Below are positions 5,682 to 58,025 of a stretch of 64,000 nucleotides of DNA, in pieces. The stretch comes from Candidatus Roslinia caecavium (GTDB lineage: Bacteria; Bacillota; Clostridia; Monoglobales; Monoglobaceae): positions 1-64,000 of the forward strand of contig CAJFTO010000012.1 of the NCBI GenBank assembly GCA_904419955.1, given 5' to 3'. The notes below the pieces were generated by a model. It was not told where the DNA came from. It ran no database searches and was given only the letters and a program-made list of their open reading frames with translations. Each line of letters starts with the position of its first letter. Positions within the stretch are counted from its first letter, which is position 1. The translations under genes were made by a program, and so were the position numbers.

Positions 5682-5726
5682 GACTGCATTACCCCCTATA
5701 TTGTAATGATACTTATATGACACTTG

Positions 5727-5740: not shown

Positions 5741-5753
5741 AACTTCGTTTATA

Positions 5754-5782
5754 ATTATAACATACTTTTGTCAAAAGGTAAA
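5754..5782 (-). promoter_or_regulatory. pflB promoter
   Basis: Minus strand TTTACC (5777-5782), 17 bases, TATAAT (5754-5759). The start of transcription would be near 5747, leaving a leader of about 65 bases. Confidence 0.55.
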
Positions 5783-5799
5783 GTATTTTTAGTAATCTT

Positions 5800-6189: not shown

Positions 6190-6212
6190 GCGGACAGGTC
6201 AAGCCTGTCCGC
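6187..6212 (-). terminator. Probable nifJ terminator
   Basis: A 9-bp stem, GCGGACAGG (6190-6198) with CCTGTCCGC (6204-6212), 5-base loop. It lies 20 bases after the nifJ stop. The following T tract on the minus strand is short (TTTGAATTTG), so efficiency is uncertain. Confidence 0.6.
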
Positions 6213-6232
6213 CCAATATTAATTAATATTAA

Positions 6233-9200
6233 TTATTCAGCATAGCTTTCGTTTGCTTTGCGAACATATGTCTTATATCTTTCCGTCAGGTCTCTTTCAG
6301 CCTTGTCGAACAATTCCTGAGCTTCGTCCGGGAACGCCTTAAGCAGCTGCAAGTATCTGTTCTCGCCCTTCATGAAGTCCTGGATACCGCCCTGAGGAGC
6401 CTTTGAATCGAGCGTGAACGGATTCGTACCCTCCGGAACGGACGGATTGAATCTCCATAAGTGCCAGTAACCGCATTCTACCGCCTTCTTCTCTTCGAGG
6501 ATGGTCGTAGCCATGCCCTTCTTGATACCATGGTTGATACACGGAGCGTAAGCTATTATGATCGACGGACCCGGATATGCCTCAGCCTCTTTGATAGCGT
6601 TAAGAGCCTGCTGCATGTTAGCGCCGAGCGCTATCTGAGCTACGTATACATAGCCGTAGGTCGTAGCTATCATACCGAGATCCTTCTTCTTAACTCTCTT
6701 GCCGGCCGCTGCGAACTTAGCTATGGCCGCCGTAGGCGTAGCCTTTGAAGCCTGTCCGCCGGTATTTGAGTAAACCTCTGTGTCAACTACCAGGATATTG
6801 ATATCCATATCCGAAGCTATAACGTGGTCGAGACCGCCGTAACCTATATCGTAAGCCCAGCCGTCGCCGCCGAATACCCACTGAGATCTCTTTACGAGGA
6901 AGTCCGTCCTGTCGGCGATCTCCTTTATAGCGGGATTGCTCATATCGGCGTCTTTAATAAGCGCTTCAATCTTAGCCGCCGCTGCTTTGGATGCGTCGGC
7001 GTTGTCCTTGCCCTCGATCCATTCCTGGAACGCTTCCTTAAGCGGAGCGTCTACAACGTCCATAACGCTGTTCATACGGCTTACCAAAGTCTCTCTTATC
7101 TTCTTGTTAGCTGCGACCATACCGAGACCAAACTCTGCGTTATCCTCGAACAACGAGTTAGCCCAAGCGGGACCGCGGCCGTTCTCATCCTTGCAGTAAG
7201 GCATCGAAGGAGCCGAACCGCCCCAGATAGACGTACAGCCCGTAGCGTTCGCTACTATCATTCTGTCGCCGAAGAGCTGAGTGATGAGCTTGATATAAGG
7301 AGTCTCTCCGCAGCCTGCGCACGCGCCCGAGAATTCGAGGTACGGCATAGCGAACTGCGAGTTCTTGATAGACTTCGTCTTGTCAACCAGATCCGCCTTA
7401 TTCGATACGCTCATAGCGTACTCCCAGTTAGGAGCTTCTGCAGGCGTAACGTCGTCGATCGGCTTCATCGTGAGCGCCTGAACCTTATCCGGGCAAACCT
7501 GAGCGCAGACTCCGCAGCCCAAGCAATCGAGCGGCGAAACCTGGATCCGGAACTTAAGTCCCTTAAGCTCCGGACCTGTAGCGTCTTTTGTTACAAACGA
7601 CTCAGGAGCGTTTGCGGCTTCCTCATCATTCAATAATATAGGACGAATAGCCGCGTGAGGACATACCGCGCTACACTGGTTACACTGGATACACTTCGTG
7701 GGATCCCACTGCGGAACCAATACGGCTACGCCTCTCTTCTCATAACGCGAAGTACCGGTCTCAAAAGTACCGTCTTCTCTTCCGGCAAACGTGCTTACCG
7801 GCAACTTGTTTCCGCGCTGAGCGTTGACCGGCTCGACGACCTTTGTGATAAATTCGGGCTTGTCCGAATTGTCTGTTTCTTCGTCTACGGCGTCTTTCCA
7901 GTAATCCGGAACGTTAACCTTATGCAGAGCCTCTATAGCGCCGTCGACGGCGTTGCAGTTCATGTTGACGATATCGTCGCCCTTTCTGCCGTAGGTCTTC
8001 TTGATAGCCGCTTTGATATATCCAACGGCTTCGTCGAACGGAATAACGTTAGCGAGCTTGAAGAACGCGCCCTGGGTTACCATGTTTATTCTTGTGGGAC
8101 CGAGGCCGACTTTGACCGCGACGTCTACCGCGTTAATCGTGTAGAAGTTGATGTCGTTCTCGGCAATATATCTCTTAACGTTCGCCGGGAGCTTCTCGTC
8201 GAGCTCTTCGTCCGACCAAACGCAGTTGAGCAGGAATGTACCGCCTTTTCTGAGGCCTTCGAGGATATCGTACTGATGTACGTACGCCGGTTTATGGCAT
8301 GCGATGTAATCAGCTTCATCCAATAAATATGTCGATTTGATCGGGCTCTTACCGAATCTGAGGTGAGACATCGTAACGCCGCCCGATTTCTTTGAGTCAT
8401 AGTCAAAGTACGCCTGAGCGTAAAGATCCGTATTGTCGCCGATGATCTTTATTGCGTCCTTATTAGCTCCGACAGTACCGTCGCTTCCGAACCCCCAGAA
8501 CTTACAACGGGTCGTGCCTTCCGAAGACGCGTTGATTCTCTCGCCCAAAGGCAGCGAAAGGTTGGTTACGTCGTCGACTATACCTATGGTAAATCCTTCT
8601 ATCGGCTTCTCAGCGTCGAGATTATCGAATACCGCAACCAGCTGAGTCGGAGTCGTATCTTTAGAACCGAGGCCGTAACGTCCGCCTATGATCATAGGAT
8701 TCATATCCGAATCTCTGAATACGTTGCAGATATCGAGATAAAGCGGCTCGCCGAGCGAACCGGGTTCCTTCGTTCTGTCAAGGACCGCGATCTTCTCAAC
8801 CGTCTTAGGCAGTACGTCGAAGAAGTATTTAGCCGAGAACGGTCTGTAGAGGTGAACCTCCAAAACGCCGGTCTTAGCGCCTCTTGCGTTGAGGTAATCT
8901 ACAGTCTCTTCAGCGGCTTCGCAAACGCTGCCCATAGCTACGATTATCTTTGTAGCGTCGGGCGCGCCGTAGTAGTTAAACGGCTTGTACTCTCTGCCCG
9001 TAAGCTCCGAGATCTTGCCCATGTATTCGTTTACGATATCCGGAACCGCGTCGTAGAACTTGTTCGCGGCCTCTCTGCCCTGGAAGTAGATATCGCCGTT
9101 TTGAGCCGTACCTCTGATAACAGGGTGCTCAGGGTTAAGAGCGTTATCCTTAAACGCTTTAAGAGCGTCCCAATCAACCAAACCTCTGAGATCGTCGTAA

Positions 9201-27942: not shown

Positions 27943-28584
27943 TTGAGCGGTAAAAATCTCAGCGCGGACAAAGCGTTTAATAAAACAAAAATGAATGCGC
28001 GGGCGAGCGAAATCGAAAAAGGACGTATGAAACAACCGTCCGGCATAAAGCGCACGGAACGCGGCGAACCTATCGAAAGGCGTGTTACCGAAGCCCTTCT
28101 ATCTTTGATGGAGAAAAACGATTACGACAAAATAACCGTGACCGATATAACAAGAGAAGCCGGGATATCGCGAATGACGTATTACAGAAATTACAATTCA
28201 AAGGACGATATCCTGATAAAATACTTTGAAGATGAATGGAGCGGATTTTTAGAATCGGCAAAGTCTGCGTCCGCTAAGAACGCTAAGACCTTTTTTACGC
28301 TTTTGTTTACGCTGTTCGGCGAAAACAAAGGTCTGATCTCGAATATGATAAACGCTGAACGCTTCGACCTGCTGTTCAATGTATTTGAAGGGTATAATAA
28401 GCTAATGATAACCGCGCTCGCCGAAAACAGCCGTCGCGAAACCGGCGATAAATACGGGATAATCTACAAAGTCGGAGGAATACTCTACATAATCAAGACC
28501 TGGATCGACGACGCCTGGGCGGAAAGCCCGGAAGAGATGGCGGAGATCGCGCTTCGGCTATTGGACGAAGAGTTCGGTCGTTAA
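27943..28584 (+). CDS. TetR/AcrR-family transcriptional regulator
   Basis: 213 residues. A basic, probably flexible N-terminal extension of about 40 residues precedes the TetR DNA-binding domain (about 45-95) with VTDITREAGISRMTYYRNYNSK as helix-turn-helix. The C-terminal region resembles TetR_C_33-like domains with no recognisable ligand. The start is TTG (27943-27945) with GGGAGG about 11 bases upstream; an internal ATG (residue 17 or 29) could also serve. It is divergent from ftsH and faces palindromic operators. Confidence 0.85.
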   Translation: MSGKNLSADKAFNKTKMNARASEIEKGRMKQPSGIKRTERGEPIERRVTEALLSLMEKNDYDKITVTDITREAGISRMTYYRNYNSKDDILIKYFEDEWSGFLESAKSASAKNAKTFFTLLFTLFGENKGLISNMINAERFDLLFNVFEGYNKLMITALAENSRRETGDKYGIIYKVGGILYIIKTWIDDAWAESPEEMAEIALRLLDEEFGR

Positions 28585-29081: not shown

Positions 29082-31592
29082 ATGAGCTTTTTCGGCAGAA
29101 AGAAAAAGGATAAGTTTTCAGATGAAAACAACACGAGTTTTACTGCTGACCCCGATTATTTGGACAAGGCCTATGGAAGCATGGGCGACGGAGTATTAGA
29201 CGAGGATGAAAACTCCGATAATTTTGCGGACGAATACGCGTTTTCAAACTCTCGGGACTACGAGCCCGGCGAGGGTTACGAACCTAATGAAGGTCGCGAA
29301 CCCGGCGAGAGCGACGAACGTCTAAATTCGGATAACGATCCTATGAGCGGCGAGACGGACGGAAGCTTCGATCCACTCGAAGAAACTGAGCCGTTTTCAG
29401 CGGGCGGAGCTTACGAACACGAGGATAGTTCGGCTTACGACGGCTACTCTAACGCGGGATCCGCCGCCGACATGGAATACGAAGTCGACTCCGACGCGTA
29501 CGGACGAGGGTACGAGATCGACGCGGCCGACAAATTTGGAGATATTGAGCCGGGCGCTGACGAGACCGGCTATTTTGGCGATTTTGAATACGCCGCTAAC
29601 GACAATGCACATTATAATGCAAAAACGAGCTCTCAGGACTCGGACGAGTACGCCGAATACGCTTCTGCGAACAACGCGGACGGCGGCGAAACAGGAGGCG
29701 TGTATGATTCCGGCGACACCGAGGATATGGACTCCGAGAACATAAACCGCAGACTTGAGAGAATACGCGAGAGCGAAGCCGACAGCCTGCTCGACGGATA
29801 TCAAACCGAATTTAACGAAAGCGACGGCGCGGAAGACGATCGTCCGGACGGCGGCTTATCGGAAGACGTTTGGAGCGACGGTTCAGGCGGCGTATACGAC
29901 GAATACGATACGGACGGTGCTGAAGCGGAAGACGATACAAACGACGACATATACGCGGCGTACGCTCCTAAAAGCGTTAAAGTCGACCGCGTAGAAACCT
30001 CGTATTATGATTTAGACAGCTTTGGAAAGGAAGAAAAACCTCCGAAGAAGTCAAGGTTTAAGAATTTCTTCAAGAAGTATAAAAAGTGGATGATAGGCGC
30101 GGGCGCGGCGGTATTGGTAGTCGCGATCGTCGTGTGCAGCGTCTCGTATATATCCTATAGAGCAGATCCGCTGAGAGGATACACCCAGATAACCGTAACT
30201 AACGGAAATGTGATAAAGACGATGTCCTGCACAGGTTCGGTGGAGCCGTTTGCAAGATATGAGATAAAATCCACCGTCTCGGGTTCTATTACGGAATCGC
30301 CGCTTAACGCCGGCGACACAGTCAGAGCCGGGGAACTTGTGTATAAAGTGGACGACACAAACGCTCAGCTTGCGGTCCAGCAAGCGGAAAACGCGGTAGA
30401 ACGGGCCCAAGCGGCGACTCAGTCGGCGTCTTCAAGCTCGTCGGATTCAGTCAGGATATACGCCAACGCGACCGGTACAATAAGTAATTTGAATATCCAG
30501 TCCGGAAGCAGACTAAGCGGCGGACAAATAGCGACGATCACGCAGGCGGACGGCAACGAGGTCGCGCTCACTCCTAATATAACCGGAACGGTATCGTCGG
30601 TGAGCGTGCGCGAAGGCTCTAGGGTCACGAGCGGTCAGCTTATCGCGACCGTGACGACCGATTCGACCGGTCCGTCGAGAGAAGAGCTGGAGCTTGACGA
30701 GCAGGGCGCTCAAATCGCGCTCGAGGCCGCCCAGCAGGAGCTTGCAAAATACAGGATAGCGTCGCCGGTAGACGGAACCATTCTTGTGAAGAACGCCAAA
30801 GTAGGCGACGTCGCCTCGGCCGACAGCGGAGAACCGATGATGGTGATCGCGGACATGAGCAGAATGAAATTCAGCGTCGAGATAGACGAAATGGATATTT
30901 GGGAGATAGAACAGGGACAGCTTGTGGTCATAACCGCGGCGGCTCTGCCGGGACAGACGTTTATGGGCGAGATAACCAACGTCGGCGGTGAAGGCAACGT
31001 AAAAGGGAACGGTATAACCACATACAACGTCGAGATCACTATAAACGATCCCGGTAAGCTGAGATCCGGCATGAATATCGACGCGAGGATCGTGCTCGAT
31101 TCAGCCAGCAACGCGCTCACCCTGCCCGATAACGCTTTATACGAGGCGGACGGAACAAACGCCCTCGTTATCGCGAGAATAGCGGGCGGAGCGGACGAAG
31201 AACGCGTAGTGGACGGCTCCGAATATCCGGGCATATTCGTTCCCGACGGATATCAGTTGGTACAGATCGAATACGGAGTTTCGGACGGTGTAAACGTAGA
31301 GATAGTATCCGGGCTTCGCGCGGGCGACGAAGTGTTATATATCAAAGACGAAAACTCGCCCGAGAGCGCAAGCGGCGGCTTTAACGCAAACAGCGTCAGT
31401 CTGCCTACGCCGACGGCTGGCTCGAACAGCTCCTCAGACGACGATAGGCTAAGCGGCGCGGATCCGGATATTATAATTCGAAGCGACGACGAGAGCGGCT
31501 CGGCTTTAGACGCTCTTCCTGATACGAGCGGCTCCGGCGCCGACGGCTTTGGTCTGCATTCGACCGACAGATACGCGACTATGGAGCAATAA
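29082..31592 (+). CDS. MacA/HlyD-type adaptor protein with long acidic cytoplasmic extension
   Basis: 836 residues. Residues 1 to about 330 are low-complexity and strongly acidic (rich in D, E, G, Y, S). A basic stretch KKSRFKNFFKKYKKW and one transmembrane helix (about 335-358) follow. The extracytoplasmic part is a membrane fusion protein. It has a first lipoyl/barrel-sandwich half (SGSITESPLNAGDTVRAGELV), an inserted pair of lipoyl-like hairpins (ATGTISNLNIQSGSRLSGG and ITGTVSSVSVREGSRVTSG), a coiled coil, and the second half (SPVDGTILVKNAKVGDVAS). A beta-barrel and membrane-proximal domain follow, then a Ser/Asp-rich tail. It is first of three genes with an ATPase-like protein and a MacB-like permease. 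AAGGAGGG precedes the ATG. The usual family length is 350-450 residues, so the cytoplasmic extension is exceptional. Confidence 0.87.
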   Translation: MSFFGRKKKDKFSDENNTSFTADPDYLDKAYGSMGDGVLDEDENSDNFADEYAFSNSRDYEPGEGYEPNEGREPGESDERLNSDNDPMSGETDGSFDPLEETEPFSAGGAYEHEDSSAYDGYSNAGSAADMEYEVDSDAYGRGYEIDAADKFGDIEPGADETGYFGDFEYAANDNAHYNAKTSSQDSDEYAEYASANNADGGETGGVYDSGDTEDMDSENINRRLERIRESEADSLLDGYQTEFNESDGAEDDRPDGGLSEDVWSDGSGGVYDEYDTDGAEAEDDTNDDIYAAYAPKSVKVDRVETSYYDLDSFGKEEKPPKKSRFKNFFKKYKKWMIGAGAAVLVVAIVVCSVSYISYRADPLRGYTQITVTNGNVIKTMSCTGSVEPFARYEIKSTVSGSITESPLNAGDTVRAGELVYKVDDTNAQLAVQQAENAVERAQAATQSASSSSSDSVRIYANATGTISNLNIQSGSRLSGGQIATITQADGNEVALTPNITGTVSSVSVREGSRVTSGQLIATVTTDSTGPSREELELDEQGAQIALEAAQQELAKYRIASPVDGTILVKNAKVGDVASADSGEPMMVIADMSRMKFSVEIDEMDIWEIEQGQLVVITAAALPGQTFMGEITNVGGEGNVKGNGITTYNVEITINDPGKLRSGMNIDARIVLDSASNALTLPDNALYEADGTNALVIARIAGGADEERVVDGSEYPGIFVPDGYQLVQIEYGVSDGVNVEIVSGLRAGDEVLYIKDENSPESASGGFNANSVSLPTPTAGSNSSSDDDRLSGADPDIIIRSDDESGSALDALPDTSGSGADGFGLHSTDRYATMEQ

Positions 31593-31699: not shown

Positions 31700-32401
31700 A
31701 TGAAAATTTCGCTTGACAGCATCACAAAATACGCCGACTTGGATAAAAAGAAGGACGCGCGGCTCAGGAACGTCTCATTCGAGGCGGAACAGGGCGAATT
31801 TGTCTCGATACATGTAAAGACGTCGAAAGAAAAACGGGCGCTAAACGAGCTTTTTGAGCTGGATATGTTCGGCGCGGAGGGCAAAGTAACTCTCGACGGT
31901 CGCGATATAGGCAAACTAAAGCCGCGAAGGCTCTCAAAGCTCAGAAGGGAAAACGTCGGCTACGTTTATTCGGAGCCTAATCTTATACAACATATGAGCG
32001 TATATAAAAACGCGACGCTTCCTCTTAAATATCGCCATGATATAAGCGACGATTATCCCGCGCTGTACAAGTACGCGATGACTCAGTGCGGATTTTCGGA
32101 GAAAGCGGCGGACGAACTAAAAAACAAACCGGCAAAGGAACTTGACTTTATCGCGGCTTTTAAGACGGCGCTTGCAAGAGCCGTTATAAACGATCCGGAC
32201 ATACTTGTCGCAGAAGAGCCGACGGACGAACTAAGCGGAACGGAAGCCGGAGAGGTTCTCGGCTTGCTGACTAAACAGAACGTGCTCGGCCGCACTCTGA
32301 TTCTTATAACCTCGGATTGGTATACGGCTAACTGGGCGGACAGGATAATCAAGATACGCGACGGCGCGATCGAAGAAGAAATAATAACAAATCTGGTTTA
32401 A
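31700..32401 (+). CDS. Degenerate LolD/MacB-type ABC ATPase-like protein
   Basis: 233 residues, aligning end to end with LolD/MacB ATPases (LRNVSFEAEQGEFVSI, VTLDGRDIGKL, ENVGYVYSEPNLIQHMSVYKNATLPL, RAVINDPDILVAEEPTDELSG, ADRIIKIRDGAI). Every catalytic motif is altered. The Walker A position reads HVKTSKEKRAL (38-48), with no GxxGxGKS/T. The Q-loop glutamine is replaced (YSEPNL). LSGGQ is missing (KELDFIAAFKTALARA). Walker B has Glu for Asp (ILVAEEP), and the H-loop His is Ser (LITSDW). The frame is intact and has AGGAG before the ATG at 31700, so it is not decaying at random. It is probably a non-hydrolysing scaffold subunit. It lies between adaptor and permease genes. Confidence 0.82.
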   Translation: MKISLDSITKYADLDKKKDARLRNVSFEAEQGEFVSIHVKTSKEKRALNELFELDMFGAEGKVTLDGRDIGKLKPRRLSKLRRENVGYVYSEPNLIQHMSVYKNATLPLKYRHDISDDYPALYKYAMTQCGFSEKAADELKNKPAKELDFIAAFKTALARAVINDPDILVAEEPTDELSGTEAGEVLGLLTKQNVLGRTLILITSDWYTANWADRIIKIRDGAIEEEIITNLV

Positions 32402-32559
32402 AACAATATTATATTTGCAGGAAGAGCTTCCGCGTCTCTCTGCGCGGCGGGATAAAAGTTTGATCCGACCTAACGCCTCGCCTGAGGATAAGATCGGCTC
32501 TATCTTCTGCTCGGCAAGCGAGCCGGACGGCTCTTTCTTAAATTGTAAAAGGAGCTAAC

Positions 32560-33705
32560 ATGAATCGTTTAGGCAGGGTATTTAAAAGAATTGGAGCGAG
32601 CTCGGCCGCGGTCGCTTTTTCTCAGGCGCTCGGTTCTGTGTTCGGATATTTTAAATATAATAAGGCGAGATGTCTGATAAGCCTTGTCGGATCGATCTTG
32701 GCTTTTGCGGCGACCTGCTCGGCGCTCTCGTTTTATTTCAGCCGAGCGGAAGGCATCGTCTACGATACGGCTATAACGGATAAGAACGTAATTTTGCTCC
32801 AGACCGAAAACGTCAAATTATCTGATATCGAGGAACTTGCTTCAAAGCGCGGTTCGCATATTGAGCGTATCCTGCCTTACGAGCGCCGCGACGTCGAAAT
32901 ACGCTACGACAGGACGGACGCCGCCGCTACTCTGGTCGCGACGGATTCGGATTTCTTTGAGAGAAGCTCTCTAGAGCTTGAATCGGGGCGTTTTTTTAAC
33001 GCAAACGAGGCCGCGTCCGGAACAAAATCGGCCGCGATAGGCGAGACGCTGAAAAACGAGCTGTTCGGAGACAGGGACGCCGTGGGAAACGAGATCAAGA
33101 TTAATAATCAGGTGTTTAAGATAACCGGCGTGGTTTCGTCCAAGTCGTCACGCGGCGGCGAAGCTATCAATAGATATATATTCGTTCCTTACACATCCGT
33201 AAGACTTATAACCGACTCGGCATATACGACCGATTACGCGGTCTTCGCGGATTCACCGCGCAGCGCTGGCGACGCAAGAGCCGAGATGGGGAACGCTCTG
33301 TCAAAACTTGGCGTCGGCGAGAATTACTCTTTTAAGACGGCGAGCGATTACACAAACGGCGCGGTAGATATCAATATAGCGCTTGCCGTCTCGGCGATTA
33401 TATTACTTATGTATATCTTAGGCTGCGCCGGACTAATATATCTAATGAAAACCAGAGTATACGTCGGCGCTGCGGAGATCCGGCTGAGACGTTTGATAGG
33501 CGCGCTGAATTCGGAGATCAAAATGCAGATAGTATTCGAGACCGCCATATGGTCGATCGTCGCCTGTCTGATAGGCGCGATAGCCGGCACAATAATAGCG
33601 GCGGTATTCTTCCTAATAAGCCCGGCCGCAATACTTATATCGGCTCTGATCGCGCTGGTCTTGGGCTTGCTGTCCGGCGCCGCGGTACGGATCCCCAAAA
33701 GATAG
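32560..33705 (+). CDS. MacB/FtsX-like ABC permease
   Basis: 381 residues. A first transmembrane helix at about 38-60 is followed by a large extracytoplasmic MacB periplasmic-core-like domain (about 65-265: ERILPYERRDVEIRY, GRFFNANEAASGTKSAAIGETLKNELFG, ITGVVSSKS). Three helices near the C-terminus (about 272-300, 325-350, 353-375) form the FtsX domain. Such permeases act by mechanotransmission with an ATPase and, in tripartite systems, an adaptor. Both partners precede it, but the ATPase-like partner looks inactive. AAAGGAG precedes the ATG. A terminator follows at 33820. Confidence 0.85.
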   Translation: MNRLGRVFKRIGASSAAVAFSQALGSVFGYFKYNKARCLISLVGSILAFAATCSALSFYFSRAEGIVYDTAITDKNVILLQTENVKLSDIEELASKRGSHIERILPYERRDVEIRYDRTDAAATLVATDSDFFERSSLELESGRFFNANEAASGTKSAAIGETLKNELFGDRDAVGNEIKINNQVFKITGVVSSKSSRGGEAINRYIFVPYTSVRLITDSAYTTDYAVFADSPRSAGDARAEMGNALSKLGVGENYSFKTASDYTNGAVDINIALAVSAIILLMYILGCAGLIYLMKTRVYVGAAEIRLRRLIGALNSEIKMQIVFETAIWSIVACLIGAIAGTIIAAVFFLISPAAILISALIALVLGLLSGAAVRIPKR

Positions 33706-45841: not shown

Positions 45842-48800
45842 ATGCCAAGAAATACTGATATAAAAAAGGTCCTGGTAATAGGTTCGGGACCGATAGTTAT
45901 AGGACAGGCCGCGGAGTTTGATTATTCCGGCACTCAGGCTTGTCAGGCCTTGCGCGAGGACGGCGTAGAGGTCGTGCTGGTAAACAGCAACCCGGCGACT
46001 ATAATGACCGATAAGGATATGGCCGACGACACGTATATCGAGCCGCTTACGGTCGAATATTTGGAAAAGGTAATAGAAAAGGAGCGTCCTGACAGCATAA
46101 TCGCGGGCATGGGCGGCCAGACGGGACTCAATCTCGCCTGCGAGCTGTACGACAACGGAACGCTCGACAAATACGGAATAAAGGTAATAGGCACGTCTAT
46201 CGAGTCGATAAAAGAGGGCGAGGACAGAGACAGCTTTAAGCGGCTCATGGAGCGCACAAACCAGCCGATGATACAGGGCGAGATAGTCAACACGGTAGAG
46301 GACGCGATAAGCTTCGCCGAAAAGATAGGCTACCCGGTAATAGTGCGCCCCGCGTACACGCTCGGCGGAACGGGCGGCGGCATAGCCGAGAACAAGAGCG
46401 AGCTCATCGAGATAGCGACTCAGGGTATCCACCTATCGAGGGTCGGTCAGGTACTTATCGAAAAATGTATCCGCGGCTGGAAGGAGATAGAGTTCGAGGT
46501 GATCCGCGACGGCGCGGGCAACTGCATCACGGTCTGCTCGATGGAGAACGTCGATCCGGTCGGAGTTCATACCGGAGACAGTATAGTCGTAGCTCCGGCT
46601 CAGACGCTGGCCGATAAGGAATACCAGATGCTGCGCAAGGCGGCGATAGATATAATCAACTCGATAGAGATAAAGGGCGGCTGCAACGTTCAGTTCGCGC
46701 TCGACCCGAACAGCTTCGAGTACGCGGTAATAGAAATAAATCCGAGGGTGAGCCGTTCTTCGGCGCTCGCTTCCAAGGCGACCGGCTACCCGATCGCAAA
46801 GATAGCGGCCAAGATAGCGCTCGGCTACAACCTCGACGAGATACTCAACGCGGTCACGGGCAAGACCTACGCCTGCTTCGAGCCGGCGCTCGACTACTGC
46901 GTTATAAAGATACCGAAGTGGCCGTTCGATAAGTTCTTCGGCGCAAAACGCCAGCTCGGCACCAAGATGATGGCGACCGGCGAGGTCATGGCGATAGGCT
47001 CGAGTTTCGAGGCGGCGCTCCTTAAAGGCGTGCGTTCGCTCGAGATAAAACAGTACACCTTAGAGCGGGAGAACTCCAAGAGCCACAGCCTCGAGGACCT
47101 TAAGCGTAGAGTTATCGTCCCGGACGACGAGAGGCTCTTCGACCTCGCGGAGCTGATACGCCGCGATTATATGATGGAGAAGATCTGCGAGCTCACCGGA
47201 ATGGATCCGTGGTTCGTCAAGAAGATAAAGAATATAGTTGAAAAGGAAGAAGAGCTTAAGGAATACGACCTTGACACGCTGACCCCGGAGGTCTTAAGGG
47301 AGTATAAGAAAATGGGCTTTTCGGATAAGGGTATCGCTCAGTTCGTCGGCTGCGGCGGAAACGAGATATACGAACTTCGCAAGAAGTGGAATATCCTGCC
47401 GGTCTATAAGATGGTAGACACCTGCGCGGGCGAGTTCGAGGCGGTGTCGCCGTATTACTACTCGACCTACGACGAGGAGAACGAGGCGGAGCCGTCGGAT
47501 AAGAAGAAAGTCCTGGTCATCGGCTCGGGTCCGATACGCATAGGTCAGGGCATAGAGTTCGACTACTGCAGCGTCCACAGCATAAAAGCGCTCGAGAAGA
47601 TGGGTATCGAGACCATAATAGTCAACAACAACCCCGAAACGGTCAGCACCGACTTCGACACCTCGGACAAGCTCTACTTCGAGCCGCTCACCGAGGAGGA
47701 CGTGCTGAGCATAATCGAGCTTGAGAAGCCGGACGGAGTTATCCTCCAGTTCGGCGGCCAGACCGCTATAAAGCTGGCCAACTTCTTAGACGAGATGAAA
47801 GTTCCGATATACGGCACCGCGCCGAAGCAGATCGACGAGGCGGAGGACAGAGAGAAGTTCGACGCGATACTTGAAGAGCTGAATATCAAGAGACCTAAGG
47901 GCAGAGGCGTATGGACGCTCGAAGACGGTATCCGCGAGGCCGAGGAGCTTGGCTATCCTCTGCTTGTAAGGCCGTCCTACGTGCTCGGCGGACAGGGCAT
48001 GGAGATAACGCACAACGAGGAAGAACTGACTCTGTATCTCGAGGACGCGTTCAAGAACGACAACAAGAATCCCGTCTTGATAGACAGGTATTTGGGCGGC
48101 AAGGAGCTCGAGGTCGACGCTATATGCGACGGTACGGACGTGTTCATACCGGGTATAATGGAACACTTGGAACGCGCCGGGATACACTCGGGCGACAGTA
48201 TCTCGATATACCCGCCGAAACACGTGTCGGACGAGATAAAACAGAAGATAATGGATGTTACGCATAGGATCGCGGTCGCGCTCAAGGTCATAGGAATGAT
48301 AAACATCCAGTTTATCGAATTTGAAGGCGAGCTGTATATAATCGAGGTAAATCCGCGCTCCAGCCGTACGGTCCCGTATATCACGAAGGTAACCGGCGTG
48401 CCGGTAATAGAGCTCGCGACCCGTATAATGCTGGGCGAGACGCTCAAGGATATGGGCTATTCGACCGGGATCAATCCCGAAGCTGAGATGACCGCGGTCA
48501 AGGTCCCGGTGTTCTCGACCGAGAAACTGCCGATGGTAGAGGTGAGCCTCGGCCCCGAAATGCGTTCTACCGGCGAAGTGCTGGGCGTCGGCCGCGACTT
48601 CTACGAGGCTATGTACAAGGGCTTCGTCGCGGCGGGCACCGCCATCCCGAAAAGCGGTAGCAGTATTCTCGCCACGGTCAGGGAGCGGGATAAGGAGAAC
48701 TTCCTGCCGATCGCCAAAAAGTTCGCGAACATGGGCGTAAGTTTCATAGCGACGTCGGGAACCGCCGAATTCCTCGAAAGCCACGGCATAAGCGTTAAGA

Positions 48801-49054
48801 TCGCTAAAAAGATAGGCGAGGGCGTGCCTAACGTACTCGACGTGATCAGAAGCGGCGTTTGCGACCTGATAATCGATATCCCGCAAAAGGGCAACGACAA
48901 GGGCAGCGACGGATTTAAGATAAGACGCTGCGCGGCCGAAAGTTCGATAACCCTTATGACCTCGCTCGACACGGTCGAGGCGGTAGCCGAGATAATGGAA
49001 AAGAACTATACTCCGGACGACGTGGACGTTATCGCGGTCAAGGAGATAAAATAA
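45842..49054 (+). CDS. carB: Carbamoyl-phosphate synthase large subunit
   Basis: Makes carbamoyl phosphate from bicarbonate, ammonia and two ATP. 1,070 residues, the usual length. Two homologous halves each start with an ATP-grasp unit: [23 protein letters not shown] (12-34) and [23 protein letters not shown] (about 555). The oligomerisation domain lies between them. The C-terminal MGS-like allosteric domain contains [16 protein letters not shown] (about 975). The ATG at 45842 has GGAG about 9 bases upstream. The 512-base gap from carA is filled by three tandem repeat units, unusual for a gene pair that is normally tightly linked. Confidence 0.97.
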
Positions 49055-49135
49055 AACGTAACGCGCGGGAATACGTCTTTCGCGCGCGAAAACAGCGATT
49101 TGATCCAAAAGATCGGATCGATTATGAATAATACG

Positions 49136-49163
49136 AGAGCGGCGTTTGCGTCGCTCTTTTTTT
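49136..49163 (+). terminator. carB terminator
   Basis: AGAGCGGCG (49136-49144) pairs with CGTCGCTCT (49149-49157), 4-base loop and one G-T pair, followed by seven T. The remaining 280 bases to leuB show no gene. Confidence 0.9.
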
Positions 49164-49443
49164 GCGTTTAACGCGCCTATAGCTTTTATCCGCAAACAAT
49201 TCTTTTAACTATTTTGGAGATATATAATAGATTCGTTTTATAATTCGCAAGATTAAAGATATAAAAAGCAAAACAAAAATATCGCCGTCCGGGCGTATCG
49301 ATATATAAAAGCAATAATAAAACGAACCGCTTCAGCGCCAAACGAAAACCCTGCTAAAGAGATCGATTTACCCTTTCTTCATAAGTTCCGTCAAGCCGCT
49401 CCCGCGGTTCGTCTTTAATATCTATTTTATCTTTATCCGTTAA

Positions 49444-50526
49444 CTATTTTTTCAGGTACTCGACGACCTTGTCGCCCATCTCTTTGGTTCCGAGGAGTAT
49501 TCCGCCCTCGTCCATGATGTCGCCGGTTCTGAAGCCGTCGTTTAATACCCGGGTTACCGCGTCCTCTATAGCCTTTGCCTCGTCCAATAGATTGAAGCTG
49601 TCTCTGAGCATCATCGCGCAGGAGATTATCGTCGCGATCGGGTTCGCCTTATTCTGTCCCGCGATGTCGGGCGCGCTGCCGTGGATCGGCTCGTACATGC
49701 CCCGCGTTCCCTCGCCGAGCGACGAAGACGGCAACATTCCTATCGAACCCGTCGTCATGCTCGCCTCGTCCGAGAGAATATCGCCGAACATGTTCTCGGT
49801 CACGATTACGTCGAACTGAGACGGATTCCTCACGATCTGCATCGCGCAGTTATCGACCAGCATATCCTCGAACTCGACGTCCGGATACTCCTCGGCGAGC
49901 TTATGCATCGTCTCGCGCCAGAGTCTCGAGGTCTCTATGACGTTCGCCTTGTCTACGCTGGTGACCTTTTTGCGGTCTCTCTTTCTCGCCAGTTCGAACG
50001 CCACGCGTCCGATCCTCTCTATCTCCTTTACCGAATATTTCAGCTCGTCGTAAGCTTCCTCGCCCATGTCCTCGGTCTGTCTTCTGCCTCTGTCGCCAAA
50101 ATACAGCCCGCCTATCAGCTCCCTGACTATGACCAGGTCGAGACCTTCCTTCGCTATCTCAGGCTTCAGCGGGCAAGCGTCCGCAAGCGCCGGATACAGC
50201 TTCGCCGGTCTGATATTTGCGAACAGGCCGAGCCCGGAGCGCAGACCGAGCAGCGCGCGTTCAGGGCGCATATCGCCCGGCAGGGTATCCCACTTGGGAC
50301 CTCCGACCGCGCCGAGCAGCACCGAATCCGAATTCAGCGCAATCTCGAGCGATTCCTTGGGCAGCGGTTCGCCGGTCGCGTCTATCGCGCAGCCGCCCGC
50401 TAAAATATCGGTATAGGTAAAGGTGTGGCCGTAAAGCTCGCCTATCTTATTTAATACCTTCTCCGCCTCTTCCACTATCTCGGGTCCGATCCCGTCCCCT
50501 TTTACAACCGCTAATTTTATATCCAT
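49444..50526 (-). CDS. leuB: 3-isopropylmalate dehydrogenase
   Basis: NAD-dependent oxidative decarboxylation of 3-isopropylmalate in leucine synthesis; in the citramalate route it also acts on 3-methylmalate to give 2-oxobutyrate. 360 residues. LLGAVGGPKWDTLPGDMRPE (about 71-90), VRELIGGLYFGDRGR (about 132), the Lys/Asp region VDKANV, and the family signature NMFGDILSDEASMTTGSIGMLPS (about 238). GSAPDIAGQNKANPIA binds NAD. Three bases separate it from the leuD stop. Last gene of the ilvD-cimA-leuCDB run. Confidence 0.96.
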   Translation of the reverse strand: MDIKLAVVKGDGIGPEIVEEAEKVLNKIGELYGHTFTYTDILAGGCAIDATGEPLPKESLEIALNSDSVLLGAVGGPKWDTLPGDMRPERALLGLRSGLGLFANIRPAKLYPALADACPLKPEIAKEGLDLVIVRELIGGLYFGDRGRRQTEDMGEEAYDELKYSVKEIERIGRVAFELARKRDRKKVTSVDKANVIETSRLWRETMHKLAEEYPDVEFEDMLVDNCAMQIVRNPSQFDVIVTENMFGDILSDEASMTTGSIGMLPSSSLGEGTRGMYEPIHGSAPDIAGQNKANPIATIISCAMMLRDSFNLLDEAKAIEDAVTRVLNDGFRTGDIMDEGGILLGTKEMGDKVVEYLKK

Positions 50527-50529
50527 CTC

Positions 50530-51015
50530 TTATTTCTCCTTTATCGAATTGAGCAGACCGTTTTTGTTGATTATATCCTTGATGAAATCCGGGAACGGCT
50601 CGGCCTGGTAGCTCTCGTTCTTGGTTATATTCGTGATCACGCCGGTGTCAAAATCGACTTCAACCGTGTCGCCGTCTTCTATCCTCTCCGACGCCTCGCG
50701 GCACTCCATTATCGGCAGACCGATATTGATCGCGTTCCTATAGAATATCCTCGCGAAGGTCGCCGCGATGACGCAGTCTATACCCGAAGCCTTGATTGCT
50801 ATCGGCGCGTGCTCGCGCGAGGAGCCGCAGCCGAAGTTGTTGTGCGCGACTATTATGTCGCCCTTTTTAACGTTGTTTACGAAATCCTTATCTATATCCT
50901 CCATGCAATGCGCCGCAAGCTCTGCGGGAACAGAGGAGTTTAAGTATCTTGCCGGGATTATTACGTCGGTATCGACGTTATCCATATATTTATGAACTCT
51001 GCCTTTTGCTTTCAT
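50530..51015 (-). CDS. leuD: 3-isopropylmalate dehydratase small subunit
   Basis: Swivel domain subunit of isopropylmalate isomerase; with LeuC it isomerises 2- to 3-isopropylmalate and, in the citramalate route, citramalate to methylmalate. 161 residues, the short archaeal/clostridial-type length. [14 protein letters not shown] (about 14-27) and [19 protein letters not shown] (about 60-78) are the conserved blocks. It lies 20 bases after leuC and 3 before leuB. Confidence 0.95.
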
Positions 51016-51035
51016 CTGTCGTATTCCTCCTTATC

Positions 51036-52298
51036 TTAGTCCAAATCCTCGGGCGAGCATATCCGGCCTTTTACCGCCGAAGCCGCCGCTATCACCGGAC
51101 TTGAGAGGTATACCTCCGATTCGGGGTGTCCCATACGTCCGACAAAGTTTCTGTTCGAGGTCGAGATCGCTCTCTCGCCCGCCGCAAGTATTCCCATATG
51201 TCCGCCGAGACATGGTCCGCAGGTCGGGGTGGATATGACGCAGCCCGCGTCTAAGAATATCGAGAACAAGCCCATCTCCATAGCCTGGCGGTATATCTTC
51301 TGCGTGGCCGGGATTATCAGCGCTCTGACGTTCTTCGCCACATGACGGCCCTTGAATACCTCGGCCGCCTTTACAAGATCCTCGAGTCTGCCGTTGGTGC
51401 AGGAGCCGATCACGCACTGGTCGATCTTCACCTCTCCGACCTCGTCGATCGTTCTGGTGTTCTCCGGCAGATGCGGGAACGCCACGGTCGGCTTGAGCTC
51501 GCTTAAATCTATATCTATGACCTGTTCGTACTCCGCGTCCTCGTCGGGGGAGTATACCGTAAACTCGCGGTCGACCTTATCCTTGAGGTAGTCTAAGGTT
51601 ATCTCGTCCACCTCGAATATGCCGTTCTTGCCGCCCGCCTCGATCGCCATATTGGCCATAGAGAGACGGTCGTCTATAGATAAGTATTTGAGGCCGTCGC
51701 CGCCGAATTCCATCGACTTATACAGCGCGCCGTCCACGCCTATCATGCCTATTATATGCAGGATCACGTCCTTGCCCGATACCCACTTGGCGGGCTTTCC
51801 GGTCAGGTTAAAGCGGATAGCCGGCGGGACCTTGAACCACGCCTCGCCCGTAGCCATGCCGGCCGCCATATCGGTCGAGCCGACGCCGGTCGAGAACGCG
51901 CCCAGCGCCCCGTAGGTGCAGGTGTGAGAGTCGGCGCCTATGACCGCCTCGCCCGGAGCGACAAGCCCCTTCTCGGGCAAAAGCGCGTGCTCCACGCCCA
52001 TCTCGCCCACGTCGTAGAAGTTTGTAACGTCCTTATCGTTTGCGAACTCGCGGCACATCTTACAGTGCTCCGCCGACTTTATATCCTTATTCGGCGTGAA
52101 GTGGTCGAGCACTATAGACACCTTGTCTTTGTCGAAAACCTTATCGAAACCCGCGGCCTTAAATTCCTTTATCGCGACCGGAGTCGTAACGTCGTTGCCG
52201 AGAACCATATCGAGCTTAGCGCGTATAAGCTGTCCGGCTTTAACGCTGTCCAAACCCGCGTGCGCGGCAAGTATCTTTTGAGTCATTGTCATGCCCAT
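51036..52298 (-). CDS. leuC: 3-isopropylmalate dehydratase large subunit
   Basis: Aconitase-family subunit carrying the 4Fe-4S cluster. 420 residues, the HacA/LeuC2-like length typical of Clostridia and archaea. [22 protein letters not shown] (signature split near residues 120-142), then cluster ligands in IGSCTNGR (about 300) and PTCGPCLGG (about 360). Several ATGs lie close together. I chose 52296-52298, which has GGAGG at 52308-52312, 9 bases upstream. That site touches the end of repeat copy G (AACGTAG). The shorter type can often serve both leucine and citramalate routes. Confidence 0.95.
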
Positions 52299-52312
52299 TG
52301 TCAAATTCCTCC

Positions 52313-52525
52313 AAACGTAGGGATTAGAGATTAGGAATTAGGGATTAGGCGGTAAAATGGCTTGCTTTGAAGACCAAGCCGCTTTGTTCGCCGAATAGGA
52401 ATACTCTGTTTGCATATTACGACCGCGCGAACCGAAGATGAAAACAAAGTATTTTATTTAGCTTAGCAAGCGGCGCCGTCAAAACGAACCGATACAGTCC
52501 TACCCTCTATTTTCTAATCACTATC
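52313..52525. repeat. Palindromic repeat copy G
   Basis: Left end AACGTAGGGATTAGAGATTAG, arm GGCGGTAAAAT, core GGAATACTCTGTTTGC, right side TACCCTCTATTTTCTAATCACTAT. The right half is diverged. It abuts the leuC ribosome binding site. Confidence 0.78.
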
Positions 52526-52579
52526 CTTTGATTATCTTTTAACTATGCCAATAATTATACAATATTAAATATCTGATGT

Positions 52580-52764
52580 CAACGTAGAGATTAGCGATTG
52601 GCGATTAGCGATTAGGGGGTGAAAACGCTTCTTTAACGTGAAAAACGGCTTCTGTAGCATGATAGGAAAACGGAGTATTCCTTTTCCGCAAAAGCTCGCG
52701 TCAGGCGTTAAATTAACCCATTTTACCCCCTATTCGCTATTCTCTAATCGCTATTCGCTACGTT
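52580..52764. repeat. Palindromic repeat copy H (full length)
   Basis: 185 bp, CAACGTAGAGATTAGCG at left, TTCGCTACGTT at right, core on the opposite strand (GGAAAACGGAGTATTCC). It contains the cimA stop codon at 52751-52753. Confidence 0.85.
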
Positions 52765-54349
52765 CGCTTATCAATAGTTTATATTCGGCCGCCTCGACGA
52801 GCGCTTTCCAGGACGCCTCTATAACGTCGGTGGACACGCCCACGGTCGACCACGATCTCAATCCGTCCGAGCTGTCGATCAATACCCTGACCTTTGACGC
52901 GGTGGCCTTTCTGTCCTCTAATACTCTAACCTTATAGTCGATGAGCTGCATATTCTTAAGCTGCGGATAGAATACCGCGAGCGCCTTTCTGAGCGCGGTA
53001 TCGAGCGCGTGCACGGGTCCGTCGCCCTCGGCCGCCGTGATCTCGGTCTGATCGCCGACCGACACCTTTATGAGCGCCGAAGCCGCGTACTTCTGAACCG
53101 CCGGCTCGTCGGTTATCGCCTTGAAGTAATCGAGTTTAAAGTATTCTTTTCTCGTCCCGAGTATCTCTCTGACAAGCAGTTCAAAACTGGCGTCCGCCGC
53201 CTCGAACGAATAGCCGTCGTATTCGAGCTGCTTTACCGCGTCGCATATCGCCTGCGTCTGCTCCGAATCTTTGGTCAGTTCGGGCGCGATCTTGTTGATC
53301 TTTTTGAGAACCGTACTCCGTCCCGCGACCTCGCTCATCAAGAACCGTCTTTCGTTGCCGACGCTGTCCGGCGGGATATGCTCGAACGACTTTGGCAGTT
53401 TATTCACCCCGTCGATATGCATCCCAGCCTTATGCGAAAACGCGGAACGTCCGACGTACGGCATGCCCTTATACAGCGGGTCGTTGGCTATCTCGGCTAT
53501 AAGCCGCGCCGTACGGGTCAACTTGAGTATGTTATCTTTAGGGATACAGTCGTATCCGAGCTTCAGCTGCAAACCCGGAATTATCGTCGATAGATTCGCG
53601 TTGCCGCATCTTTCGCCGTAGCCGAGGTACGTGCCCTGGACTTGGCTACAGCCGGCCTTTACCGCCATGATCGAATTAGCCGCCGCGCAGCCGCTGTCGT
53701 TGTGGCAGTGTATGCCGAGCGGAACGTCTACCTCCTTAGCGGCCGCCTTGACGATCTCGTAGACCTCGTCCGGAAACGCGCCGCCGTTCGTCTCGCAAAG
53801 CGCTAAGCAGTCGGCTCCGCCCTCGCGTGCGGCGCGCAGGCTCATGAGCGCGTAGTCGGGATTGTTCTTATATCCGTCGAAGAAATGCTCCGCGTCGAAT
53901 ACGACTTCCTTGCCCATGTCCTTAAAAAAGCTCACCGTGTCCCGTATCATGTTGAGGTTCTCCTCGAGGGTCGCGCCGAGTATCTTTTCGACGTGCAGAT
54001 CCCAGCTCTTTCCGAATATCGCGACCGCGTCCGTTCCCGCGCTGAGCAGCGACCTGCAATTGGAATCGTTGCGGGCGAGAATATTCCGCCGCCGCGTCGA
54101 ACCGAACGCGACTATCTTAGCGTGTTTCAGCTCAAGCCCCTTGACCTCTTCGAAAAACTCGAGATCCTTAGGATTAGAGCCGGGATTCCCGGCCTCGATA
54201 TATCCGACCCCCAATTCGTCGAGAGCCTTTACGATATTTATCTTATCGGACACAGAAAAATTTATCCCCTCCCCCTGGACTCCGTCCCGAAGAGTGGAAT
54301 CAAATATCTGTATTTTTTTTGAAGCGTTGTTGTTATTATTATTCATCAT
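52751..54349 (-). CDS. cimA: (R)-citramalate synthase
   Basis: Condenses pyruvate and acetyl-CoA to citramalate, giving 2-oxobutyrate for isoleucine without threonine. 532 residues. The HMGL-like TIM barrel has FDSTLRDGVQGEGINFSVSD (about 15-34), IEAGNPGSNPKD where the family has E-G-WPGSNPKD, and the metal-binding HCHND (about 208). The LeuA allosteric domain occupies 395-525. CimA is told from LeuA by QGEG and GSNPKD. The ATG pair at 54344-54349 has only a weak ribosome binding site, within repeat copy I's end. The final residues SERSE and stop are repeat copy H sequence. The neighbours leuCDB supply the next steps. Confidence 0.92.
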   Translation of the reverse strand: MMNNNNNNASKKIQIFDSTLRDGVQGEGINFSVSDKINIVKALDELGVGYIEAGNPGSNPKDLEFFEEVKGLELKHAKIVAFGSTRRRNILARNDSNCRSLLSAGTDAVAIFGKSWDLHVEKILGATLEENLNMIRDTVSFFKDMGKEVVFDAEHFFDGYKNNPDYALMSLRAAREGGADCLALCETNGGAFPDEVYEIVKAAAKEVDVPLGIHCHNDSGCAAANSIMAVKAGCSQVQGTYLGYGERCGNANLSTIIPGLQLKLGYDCIPKDNILKLTRTARLIAEIANDPLYKGMPYVGRSAFSHKAGMHIDGVNKLPKSFEHIPPDSVGNERRFLMSEVAGRSTVLKKINKIAPELTKDSEQTQAICDAVKQLEYDGYSFEAADASFELLVREILGTRKEYFKLDYFKAITDEPAVQKYAASALIKVSVGDQTEITAAEGDGPVHALDTALRKALAVFYPQLKNMQLIDYKVRVLEDRKATASKVRVLIDSSDGLRSWSTVGVSTDVIEASWKALVEAAEYKLLISERSE

Positions 54350-54357
54350 AATTTACC

Positions 54358-54542
54358 CAACGTAGGAATTAGGATAATAGGAATTAGGGAGTAGGGGGCG
54401 AATTTCGCCCCTGTAACGCCGAACGCTTACGTCTGCGGAAAAGGAATACTCTATTTTCCTATAATGTTACAGCGCCCGTATCCACGCTACAGCAGCGTTC
54501 TGGGCTCCTAATTCCTAATTTCTAATCCCTAACTCCTACGTT
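54358..54542. repeat. Palindromic repeat copy I (full length)
   Basis: 185 bp from CAACGTAGGAATTAGG to CTAACTCCTACGTT, arm GGGCGAATTTCGCCCCTG, core GGAATACTCTATTTTCC. Head to tail with copy J. Confidence 0.85.
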
Positions 54543-54728
54543 AACGTAGGAATTAGGGGGGAGGCGTTAGGGCGTAGGAACCCAACAGTCTTTCGCAACC
54601 GTTTATACGGCTTCCGTAACGTTATAGGAAAGTACCGTATTCCAACTTCCGCAGACGCAGCCGTCAGACGTTACAGCCGCCCATTCTACCCCCCTAATTC
54701 CCAATTCCTAATCCCTAACTCCTACGTT
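54543..54728. repeat. Palindromic repeat copy J (full length)
   Basis: 186 bp from AACGTAGGAATTAGG to CTAACTCCTACGTT, core on the opposite strand (GGAAAGTACCGTATTCC). It supplies the ilvD stop codon (54708-54710). Confidence 0.85.
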
Positions 54729-56393
54729 CACCTTTAAAACCGCTCCGGTGGACGCGGACGTTACCAAAGCCGCGTATTTGGCGAGGACACCGCCCTGGAT
54801 CTTCGGCGGTTTGGGAGTGAAGTTCTTCTTCCTCTCCTCCATCTCCTCGTCCGAGACCTTGACTTCTATCGTACCCTCGGGGATATTGATCGATATTATA
54901 TCTCCGTCCTTGATAAACGCGATAGGTCCGCCCTCCGCCGCTTCGGGCGAAACGTGACCGATAGCCGCGCCTCTGGTCGCTCCGGAGAAACGTCCGTCGG
55001 TTATAAGCGCGACGTCCGAATCAAGTCCCATTCCCGCTATAGCCGAGGTCGGGGAGAGCATCTCTCTCATTCCGGGTCCGCCTTTCGGTCCCTCGTAACG
55101 GATAACTACTACGTCGCCCTTCTTGATCTTGCCGCCGAGTATCGCCTTGATACTCTCGTCCTCGCTGTCGAATACTACCGCCGGGCCTTCGTGTACGAGC
55201 ATCTCCGGCTTTACCGCGCTCCTCTTTACAACGCAGCTGTCGGGCGCGATATTCCCTTTGAGTATCGCTATGCCGCCGGTCTCGCTGTACGGATTGTCTA
55301 TCGGGCGTATTATATTCGTATCCTTGTTAACGGCGCCCTCTATATTCTCTCCGACCGTCTTGCCGGTAACTGTCAGACAGCTCAGGTCGAGCAGACCCTT
55401 TTTCGCTATCTCGCTCTCGACCGCCGGGATACCGCCCGCCTCGTAGAGATCCACGATAAACGTATGTCCCGCGGGCGCGAGCTTGGTCAGGTTCGGCGTT
55501 CTCGCGCTTACCTCGTTCGCTATTTCCAGGTTGAGCGTAACTCCTGCCTCGTGAGCTATAGCCGGAAGATGGAGCATACTGTTGGTGCTGCAACCGAGCG
55601 CCATATCCATCGTCATAGCGTTTATAAACGCCGCCTCGGTCATGATATCGCGGGGCTTTATATCCTTTTCGACCAGGGTCATTATCTGCATACCCGCTTT
55701 TTTGGCGAGCTGAACTCTCGCGCCGTATACCGCGGGGATCGTGCCGTTGCCGGGCAGGCCCATGCCTATGACCTCGGTCAGGCAGTTCATACTGTTTGCG
55801 GTGAACATACCCGAGCATGAGCCGCAGGTAGGACACGCGACGTTCTCTTCCTCTACTACTTCGGCCTCCGACATATTGCCCGCGGCCTCGGCGCCTACAT
55901 ATTCGAACATATCGGTGAGGCTGAGACGCTTGTCGCTGCATCTGCTGTTGCCGGGGAGCATAGGTCCGCCGCTTATGACTATAGCGGGGATATTGAGTCT
56001 CGCCGCCGCCATGAGCATACCGGGAACGACCTTGTCGCAGTTGGGTATCAGCACAAGCCCGTCGAACTGGTGCGCCTTAGCGAGAGTCTCGATAGAGTCC
56101 GCGATTATCTCGCGGGATACCAGCGAATAATGCATACCCTCGTGACCCATCGAGATACCGTCGCAGACCGCTATAGCCGGGACCTCTATCGGGGTTCCGC
56201 CGGCCATCCTTACGCCTTCCTTCGCCGCCTTGGCGATCGTGTCTAAGTGAACGTGTCCCGGAACGATCTCGCTCTGGGAATTGACTACGCCTATGAGCGG
56301 TCTGTCGATCTCCTCGTCGGTAAAGCCCATAGCCTTAAATAACGAACGATGCGGCGCCTTACCGACGCCTTTTTTTACTTTATCTGAAATCAT
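54708..56393 (-). CDS. ilvD: Dihydroxy-acid dehydratase
   Basis: Fe-S enzyme that dehydrates dihydroxy-isovalerate and dihydroxy-methylvalerate to the oxoacids of valine and isoleucine. 561 residues. Signature [20 protein letters not shown] (about 117), cluster region [19 protein letters not shown] (about 187), and the C-terminal signature [20 protein letters not shown]. Cluster cysteines are present. I chose the ATG at 56391-56393, with GAGGG at about 56401-56405; a TTG lies five codons upstream. The C-terminus NVGVRD plus stop is repeat copy J sequence, the same GVRD that ends carA. Confidence 0.95.
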
Positions 56394-56512
56394 ATTTTTA
56401 GCCCTCAACTCTCTATATATTATTGATCGATCCGTATCCCATTTCCGCGATCCGAACGGCCGCGGCTAAACGGATCTATTCCGCCGCTATTCTCAATTTC
56501 TGCGATACTACG

Positions 56513-56540
56513 TTAAAAGGGCGGGGCAATCTGCCCGCCC
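56513..56540 (-). terminator. ilvC terminator
   Basis: GGGCGGG (56519-56525) pairs with CCCGCCC (56534-56540), followed on the minus strand by TTTT. It lies about 110 bases after the ilvC stop. Confidence 0.75.
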
Positions 56541-56650
56541 CTCAAATATCCAATATTAAAGGTGTGACGATATATTTAAGCTCTAAGACGCGGCCGGCGG
56601 ACGTTTGGTATCCGTCGAACTCGCGTCCGATCTCGCTTTGCAAAAGCTGA

Positions 56651-57690
<1,040 letters not shown>

Positions 57691-57715
57691 ATATATTTAT
57701 TAAATGTTCTCATCT

Positions 57716-57744
57716 ATTTTATAATTCTATACGGTTTTTGTCAA
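57716..57744 (-). promoter_or_regulatory. ilvC promoter
   Basis: Minus strand TTGACA (57739-57744), 17 bases, TAAAAT (57716-57721). Confidence 0.75.
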
Positions 57745-57815
57745 TATTTTTTATCTGATTTTATGATAAGTTATAGTTTTCACATCATTTTCGCTCTCTT
57801 TATTATACAACTTAT

Positions 57816-57945
57816 CAACGTAAAAATTAGCGATTAGCGAACGGCGAATATCGAGGTAAGATTCAGCGCTTTGACGCCGAACGCGAGCGTCGGCGGAACG
57901 GGGAATGCTTTGCGTTTCTTTGCGGCTTAATAAATCGTTTAAACG
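57816..57945. repeat. Palindromic repeat copy K1 (partial)
   Basis: Left end CAACGTAAAAATTAGCG, arm TTTGACGCCGAACGCGAGC, core GGAATGCTTTGCGTTTC. The right half is lost. Confidence 0.65.
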
Positions 57946-58025
57946 GCTATATATCCGGAATGGAATATGATGTTTTATGAGATCGTCGATATTCTTAATA
58001 ATTGTTTCGTAAAATGTTTCGTATA

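Follow-up and report, generated by a model that had tools for sequence, protein, structure and literature searches.

The window, i.e., the 64,000-nucleotide stretch of Candidatus Roslinia caecavium DNA analyzed here, holds three consecutive genes of one strand, encoding an adaptor, an ABC-type NBD and a permease, the adaptor beginning with an N-terminal extension that is considered further below:

29082..31592, + strand: MacA/HlyD-type membrane-fusion (adaptor) protein (MFP), 836 aa, matched by RND_mfp TIGR01730, HlyD_D23 and HlyD_3
29082..30089, + strand: acidic extension at the N-terminus of the adaptor, cytoplasmic, ~336 aa with 28% D/E, preceding the single TM helix, as seen by clade comparison
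31700..32401, + strand: putative pseudo-ATPase (ABC NBD with degenerate catalytic motifs), 233 aa, assigned by alignment, decay tests, AF2 and Foldseek
32560..33705, + strand: MacB/FtsX-type permease, 381 aa, with four predicted TM helices and a MacB periplasmic core domain, assigned by profiles and a TM scan

This adaptor-NBD-permease order is that of MacAB/YknXYZ-type operons and recurs in 17 intact trios, and, judging by gene content, the window system derives from that kind. The adaptor scores 139.8 bits with RND_mfp TIGR01730, which is above the cut-off, and also matches HlyD_D23 and HlyD_3; it is the conserved core of the system. The permease yields 87.5 bits with MacB_PCD and 27.7 bits with FtsX. 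The ABC reading frame starts with an ATG, has no internal stops and is preceded, 8 nt upstream, by an AGGAG motif, i.e., by the good ribosome-binding site that the first-pass annotation had credited it with. Some 500 bp upstream of the adaptor, a TetR-type regulator gene (27943-28584) is found on the same strand and could control the operon; no counterpart of it was matched near the loci of the related genus g7. The 158-bp gap between the ABC and permease genes (32402-32559) shows several short inverted repeats by eye, unlike most trios, in which these two genes overlap or nearly touch.

Both profile and PDB matches (MJ0796 at 7e-25; Spr0694, 5xu1, at 4e-23) place the ABC protein over its full length among the MacB/LolD/FtsE-branch NBDs, with 38.9 bits for PF00005 against a cut-off of 25 and an identity of 26-29% to the NBDs of the trios, while the equivalog cut-offs for MacB (PRK10535), LolD (TIGR02211; 87 vs 308) and FtsE (TIGR02673; 95 vs 265) are all missed by far. 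Alignment with the 17 intact trio NBDs, which served as the motif reference, locates the following replacements:

31814..31840, + strand: degenerate Walker A, GPSGSGKST to VKTSKEKRA
31970..31972, + strand: Q-loop, FIFQ to YVYS, with Gln replaced by Ser91
32141..32155, + strand: degenerate signature, LSGGQ to LDFIA
32204..32218, + strand: degenerate Walker B, ILADE to LVAEE, with Asp replaced by Glu and the catalytic Glu kept
32312..32314, + strand: H-loop, LITHD to LITSD, with His replaced by Ser205

The D-loop has likewise changed from ALDS to ELSG, and the A-loop Tyr is missing as well, so that 15 of the 19 catalytic-motif positions are replaced and just four (K45, L148, E173 and L178) are kept; the set of motifs that marks a working ATPase, from Walker A, Q-loop and LSGGQ to the Asp-Glu of Walker B, D-loop and H-loop, is not there. 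The first-pass annotation had described an ABC-like subunit whose motifs were lost and whose frame was intact, and both the alignment and the stop-free 233-aa frame bear this out; its list of losses stands too, refined in two points, as the Lys of Walker A and the catalytic Glu both align and have been kept. These losses are no chance artefact, since most other NBDs of the same genome outscore this one by far in the same search, and since its per-codon coding score (0.247) equals those of its neighbours (0.263 and 0.224).

Whether such a gene is a decaying one was addressed with neutral simulations, in which the intact paralogue of the very same genome was evolved to the identity of the window NBD in 400 runs; as no indels were simulated, the test is conservative. 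The simulated sequences accumulated 7.9 stops on average and none of the 400 was stop-free (the window NBD has 0), while the window NBD keeps 52 of 62 hydrophobic core positions (neutral mean 39, maximum 48) and 35 of 74 invariant non-catalytic residues (neutral mean 22, maximum 31). The combination of zero stops and at least 15 catalytic losses never arose in 1500 neutral runs at each of seven divergences, whereas the retention of catalytic versus other invariant residues (4/19 vs 35/74), taken by itself, differs to a degree that is no more than suggestive (Fisher test, p=0.07). The AF2 model of the protein, built from a 20-sequence alignment, is a complete NBD (pLDDT 92, pTM 0.88) with its core beta-sheet and P-loop helix in place, the top Foldseek match of which is the SpMacB NBD (5xu1, TM 0.86-0.90), TM values against the MacB, SpMacB and MJ0796 NBDs generally being 0.8-0.9; by itself, this model is weak evidence, as it depends on the active homologues with which the protein was aligned.

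Simple decay of the ABC gene is rejected by these simulations, with the caveat that the constraint may precede the catalytic loss. Nevertheless, simple pseudogenization, i.e., a dying gene that is open by chance and bound to be deleted just as in the sister genus g7, deserves to be weighed, as the gene has already been lost from that genus, its branch in the ABC tree is very long (10 changes per site, which is too long for placement among the trios), its 158-bp spacing from the permease gene is looser than in most trios and the minor coupling helix of the permease has gone. Against this, no neutral run stayed stop-free at this divergence or combined an open frame with 15 of 19 catalytic losses, the hydrophobic core and the non-catalytic invariant residues are over-retained, the coding score is undiminished, and the major coupling helix of the permease and the groove of the NBD are both kept, so that we regard this explanation as unlikely. 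As neutral decay gives about eight stops and a worse-kept core, the window gene is, as far as its sequence allows one to judge, a folded pseudo-ATPase and not a decaying gene, even if part of the constraint could pre-date the catalytic loss; put differently, it has by all appearances been constrained for its fold while free of constraint for catalysis.

A folded pseudo-enzyme might, of course, still make some cryptic use of nucleotides, with the pseudo-NBD binding or slowly hydrolyzing ATP via a non-canonical pocket (Lys45, Glu173) and the machine being ATP-regulated. Among the catalytic positions, the Lys of Walker A and the catalytic Glu of Walker B have indeed been retained, and the modelled fold keeps the core beta-sheet and the P-loop helix, but the P-loop glycines and Ser/Thr, the Q-loop Gln, the signature, the switch His and the A-loop aromatic residue are all gone, and orthologous complexes do without an NBD altogether, which makes such use of ATP highly improbable in our view.

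Those orthologous complexes were found through the adaptor, orthologues of which occur in three further genera of the family, namely in 12 species of g7 (59-62% identity), four of g8 (39-43%) and five of g6 (37-40%). In the MFP tree, the window, g7, g6 and g8 adaptors form a clade (100/100) that splits into window plus g7 (100/99) and g6 plus g8 (100/100) and whose sisters are the intact trios found in g2, g5 and g9; in the permease tree, a 99/97 branch separates the window and g7 sequences from the others. Each of the 12 g7 species has the permease gene ~20-110 bp downstream of the MFP gene, with no ABC gene at the locus; the nine g6/g8 species all have a solitary adaptor gene there (two of these contigs end close downstream), and a search of these genomes for a relocated permease revealed none, the sole strong match per genome, where there was any, being the permease of a trio. 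Synteny between the window and g7 flanks was absent within the stretches compared, and the orthology of the loci is instead argued from the MFP and permease trees and from PFOR/pflB genes that lie loosely nearby in g8 and g6. Pairwise (Nei-Gojobori) dN/dS values for close pairs within g7 amount to 0.04-0.14 for the MFP core and 0.14-0.24 for the permease; the ATPase-free MFP-permease pair of g7 is under purifying selection.

Most genomes of the clade also hold an intact paralogous trio, as does the window's own genome (G000:C7, locus L060 at 47000-58000, with the trio at 3394-7701 of that locus); the NBD reading frame of this trio has an open stretch of ~110 residues before the NBD, which may reflect a start codon called wrongly or else a genuine extension.

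No orthologue of the window NBD was found in a scan of the genomes of 84,980 species, which detects close relatives only and gave remote matches of at most 32% identity, and the matches among 38 genomes of the family reach at most 35% identity and are intact trio NBDs where checked; the genus of the window is represented by one genome. Nor was a relocated ABC gene seen in the single-contig g7 genome G021, in which the homologues of the window NBD (P0001) down to E=1 are ordinary NBDs or lie in loci with reading frames that have an intact Walker A. Relatives with intact motifs at the same locus, which the first-pass annotation had named, along with relaxed selection in the window, as the observation that would point to pseudogenization, were looked for as well, and what the relatives offer there is a locus without any ABC gene. 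As the adaptor-NBD-permease order is common to all intact systems, the dead NBD of the window is most simply explained as an ancestral gene that was retained here and lost from g7.

What became of the contact between the NBD and the permease can be followed on both partners. MacB-type permeases carry, between TM2 and TM3, a major coupling helix that fits into a groove of the NBD, with further contacts made by a minor helix at the C-terminus (PMC5985334, PMC5768738). The major helix is still found, in diverged form, in the window permease:

33469..33519, + strand: major coupling helix, retained as AAEIRLRRLIGALNSEI in the stretch from TM2 to TM3, the docking element for the NBD, by comparison with the trio consensus

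All 17 trio permeases keep the VTERTREIGIRKxxGA coupling helix (17-21 of 22 positions), and the window permease retains 8 of the 22 (GAAEIRLRRLIGA) against 0-2 in the ABC-less g7 permeases, even though overall identity to the trios is alike (89/391 for the window permease, 88/391 for the best g7 one); AF2 of one g7 permease shows a loop alone at about 300-314, where the coupling helix belongs. As for the minor helix, the window permease has a deletion in its place, and none can be recognized in g7. The window helix GAAEIRLRRLIGA is also close to the FtsX peptide ISREIQIMRLVGA, which has been shown to bind FtsE (PMC7468199). On the side of the NBD, the groove residues listed for Spr0694 (PMC5768738), when mapped by hand onto the window protein, are kept or conservatively replaced in five cases (F90 to Y88, F92 to Y90, L109 to L107, Y113 to Y111 and R84 to R82) and lost in one (I112 to K110); both partners still have their residue of the Arg325-Tyr113 pair, and both have lost that of the Arg332-Glu77 salt bridge. 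As the coupling helix is kept in the window and the groove residues mostly so, the dead NBD probably still docks on the window permease, the correlation between coupling helix and NBD being one of one lineage versus one lineage.

A retained coupling helix could, conversely, serve an intact NBD from elsewhere, e.g., that of the trio in G000:C7, which would energize the window permease with the pseudo-NBD as its partner or a bystander. The presence of an intact paralogous trio in the same genome would make this feasible; however, a pseudo-NBD without Walker A and signature would break both composite sites of a heterodimer, the minor coupling helix of the window permease is deleted, and, with the major coupling helix gone, the usual docking of an NBD is impossible in g7. 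The recruitment of an ATPase encoded elsewhere, which had been offered previously as one of two outcomes, is therefore not favoured, the G021 homologues being ordinary NBDs, and we find it hardly probable at all.

The adaptor, in turn, has gained something. An acidic extension (64-415 aa, 18-33% D/E) opens all 22 MFPs of the window/g7/g6/g8 clade, the start codons of some solo MFPs (e.g., those at L112, L134 and L136) perhaps having been called too far upstream; the same N-terminal part spans 9-50 aa with at most 8% D/E in the MFPs of the 17 intact trios and is basic there. Within g7, the acidic tail shows dN/dS values of 0.14-0.30. The tails of the window genus (g1) and g7 open with the motif FF-K ... 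YL--AY-S-GD, and those of most g6/g8 solo adaptors with EDFVLF/L. At L136 (G020:C63, 7267-9867, - strand), an 867-aa solo adaptor frame ending at the edge of its contig has an N-terminus (MIKYNPYQLVTEITIDGQPL...) that looks different from those of the remaining solo adaptors; it is possibly a fusion or a mis-called start.

Taken as a whole, we consider it likely that the locus represents a MacAB/YknXYZ paralogue that has been stripped of its ATPase stepwise to become an ATP-independent, MFP-centred envelope complex of presumed function, with the window depicting the pseudo-ATPase stage. The starting point would be a machine of the MacAB/YknXYZ/Spr0693-0695 type (Type VII ABC), the NBD of which turned into a pseudo-ATPase; this pseudo-NBD would fold, dock via the coupling helix of the permease, and cap and stabilize the permease dimer, with no ATP cycle driving the complex. 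The series would thus lead from an active NBD to a dead but docked one and on to the loss of both the NBD and the coupling helix, and, in the g6/g8 branch, the permease would have gone as well. What is left may be a static or sensory envelope assembly of which the adaptor is the essential part, the newly acquired acidic tail of the latter giving a cytoplasmic contact in place of the ATPase. That ATP-driven transport was lost in favour of a static or signalling complex had been proposed from the window sequence beforehand, and the MFP-permease pairs of 12 g7 species, which lack both the ABC gene and the coupling helix and are under purifying selection, lend it support. A more specific picture, of an ATP-free trans-envelope device in which the pseudo-ATPase was later discarded, the acidic and probably disordered tail acts as the cytoplasmic input in place of the ATPase and a mechanotransmission pump has become an adaptor-centred scaffold or sensor, is put forward tentatively, as it may well turn out otherwise.

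Comparison with known systems underlines how the window differs from each of them. ADOP (TIGR03434), the acidobacterial duplicated orphan permease, whose name we take to denote permeases without an adjoining ATPase, is likewise of FtsX/MacB type and is matched weakly by the window permease (64 bits vs a cut-off of 622), but is a duplicated permease of ~800 aa, whereas the window permease consists of one 381-aa unit and shares its operon with an adaptor. In degenerate-site ABC transporters, one canonical composite site persists. ABCB11 and ABCG5/G8 belong here, in that catalytic residues of an NBD are lost and the protein is kept, one of their two composite sites staying canonical (PMC7544095), whereas the only NBD of the window operon has lost both Walker A and signature. 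MacA-MacB, the Gram-negative tripartite efflux system (Type VII ABC), shares the adaptor, the FtsX-type permease with its MacB periplasmic core domain and a homologous NBD; in MacB, however, an active ATPase is fused to the permease, while the window NBD is separate, catalytically dead and absent from orthologous loci. The Gram-positive MacAB-like systems Spr0693-Spr0694-Spr0695 (Streptococcus pneumoniae) and YknXYZ (Bacillus) share the gene order and the separate NBD and permease, and they include the top structural match of the NBD model (Spr0694, 5xu1) and the same coupling-helix and groove positions (PMC5768738). Spr0694 is, however, an active ATPase, the activity of which is drastically reduced by E170Q (PMC5768738), whereas the window NBD has lost its catalytic motifs and the window adaptor has a 336-aa acidic tail. 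FtsEX, a Type VII ABC used for mechanical signalling rather than transport, has an FtsX peptide resembling the window coupling helix, but FtsE has all the motifs of an active ATPase, unlike the window NBD (PMC7468199). As a competent NBD is wanting, with the motifs lost in the window and the gene absent from the g7, g6 and g8 loci, the window system should not be classed among the MacAB efflux pumps.

In the open-access literature searched, outside of which most subscription journals lie, no MacAB-like pair of adaptor and permease that lacks an ATPase was found to be described. Type VII ABC machines (MacB, LolCDE and FtsEX) are understood to be ATP-driven levers working outside the membrane. 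Within one bacterial family, the motor of such a lever seems to have been switched off and then removed together with the coupling helix, while the adaptor and the permease have stayed under purifying selection, which suggests a selectable function for the extracytoplasmic half in its own right. The family would thereby test, by natural means, which elements of the lever are there solely to serve ATP hydrolysis, and the dead NBD that is kept with its coupling helix would set the structural role of NBDs apart from their catalytic one.
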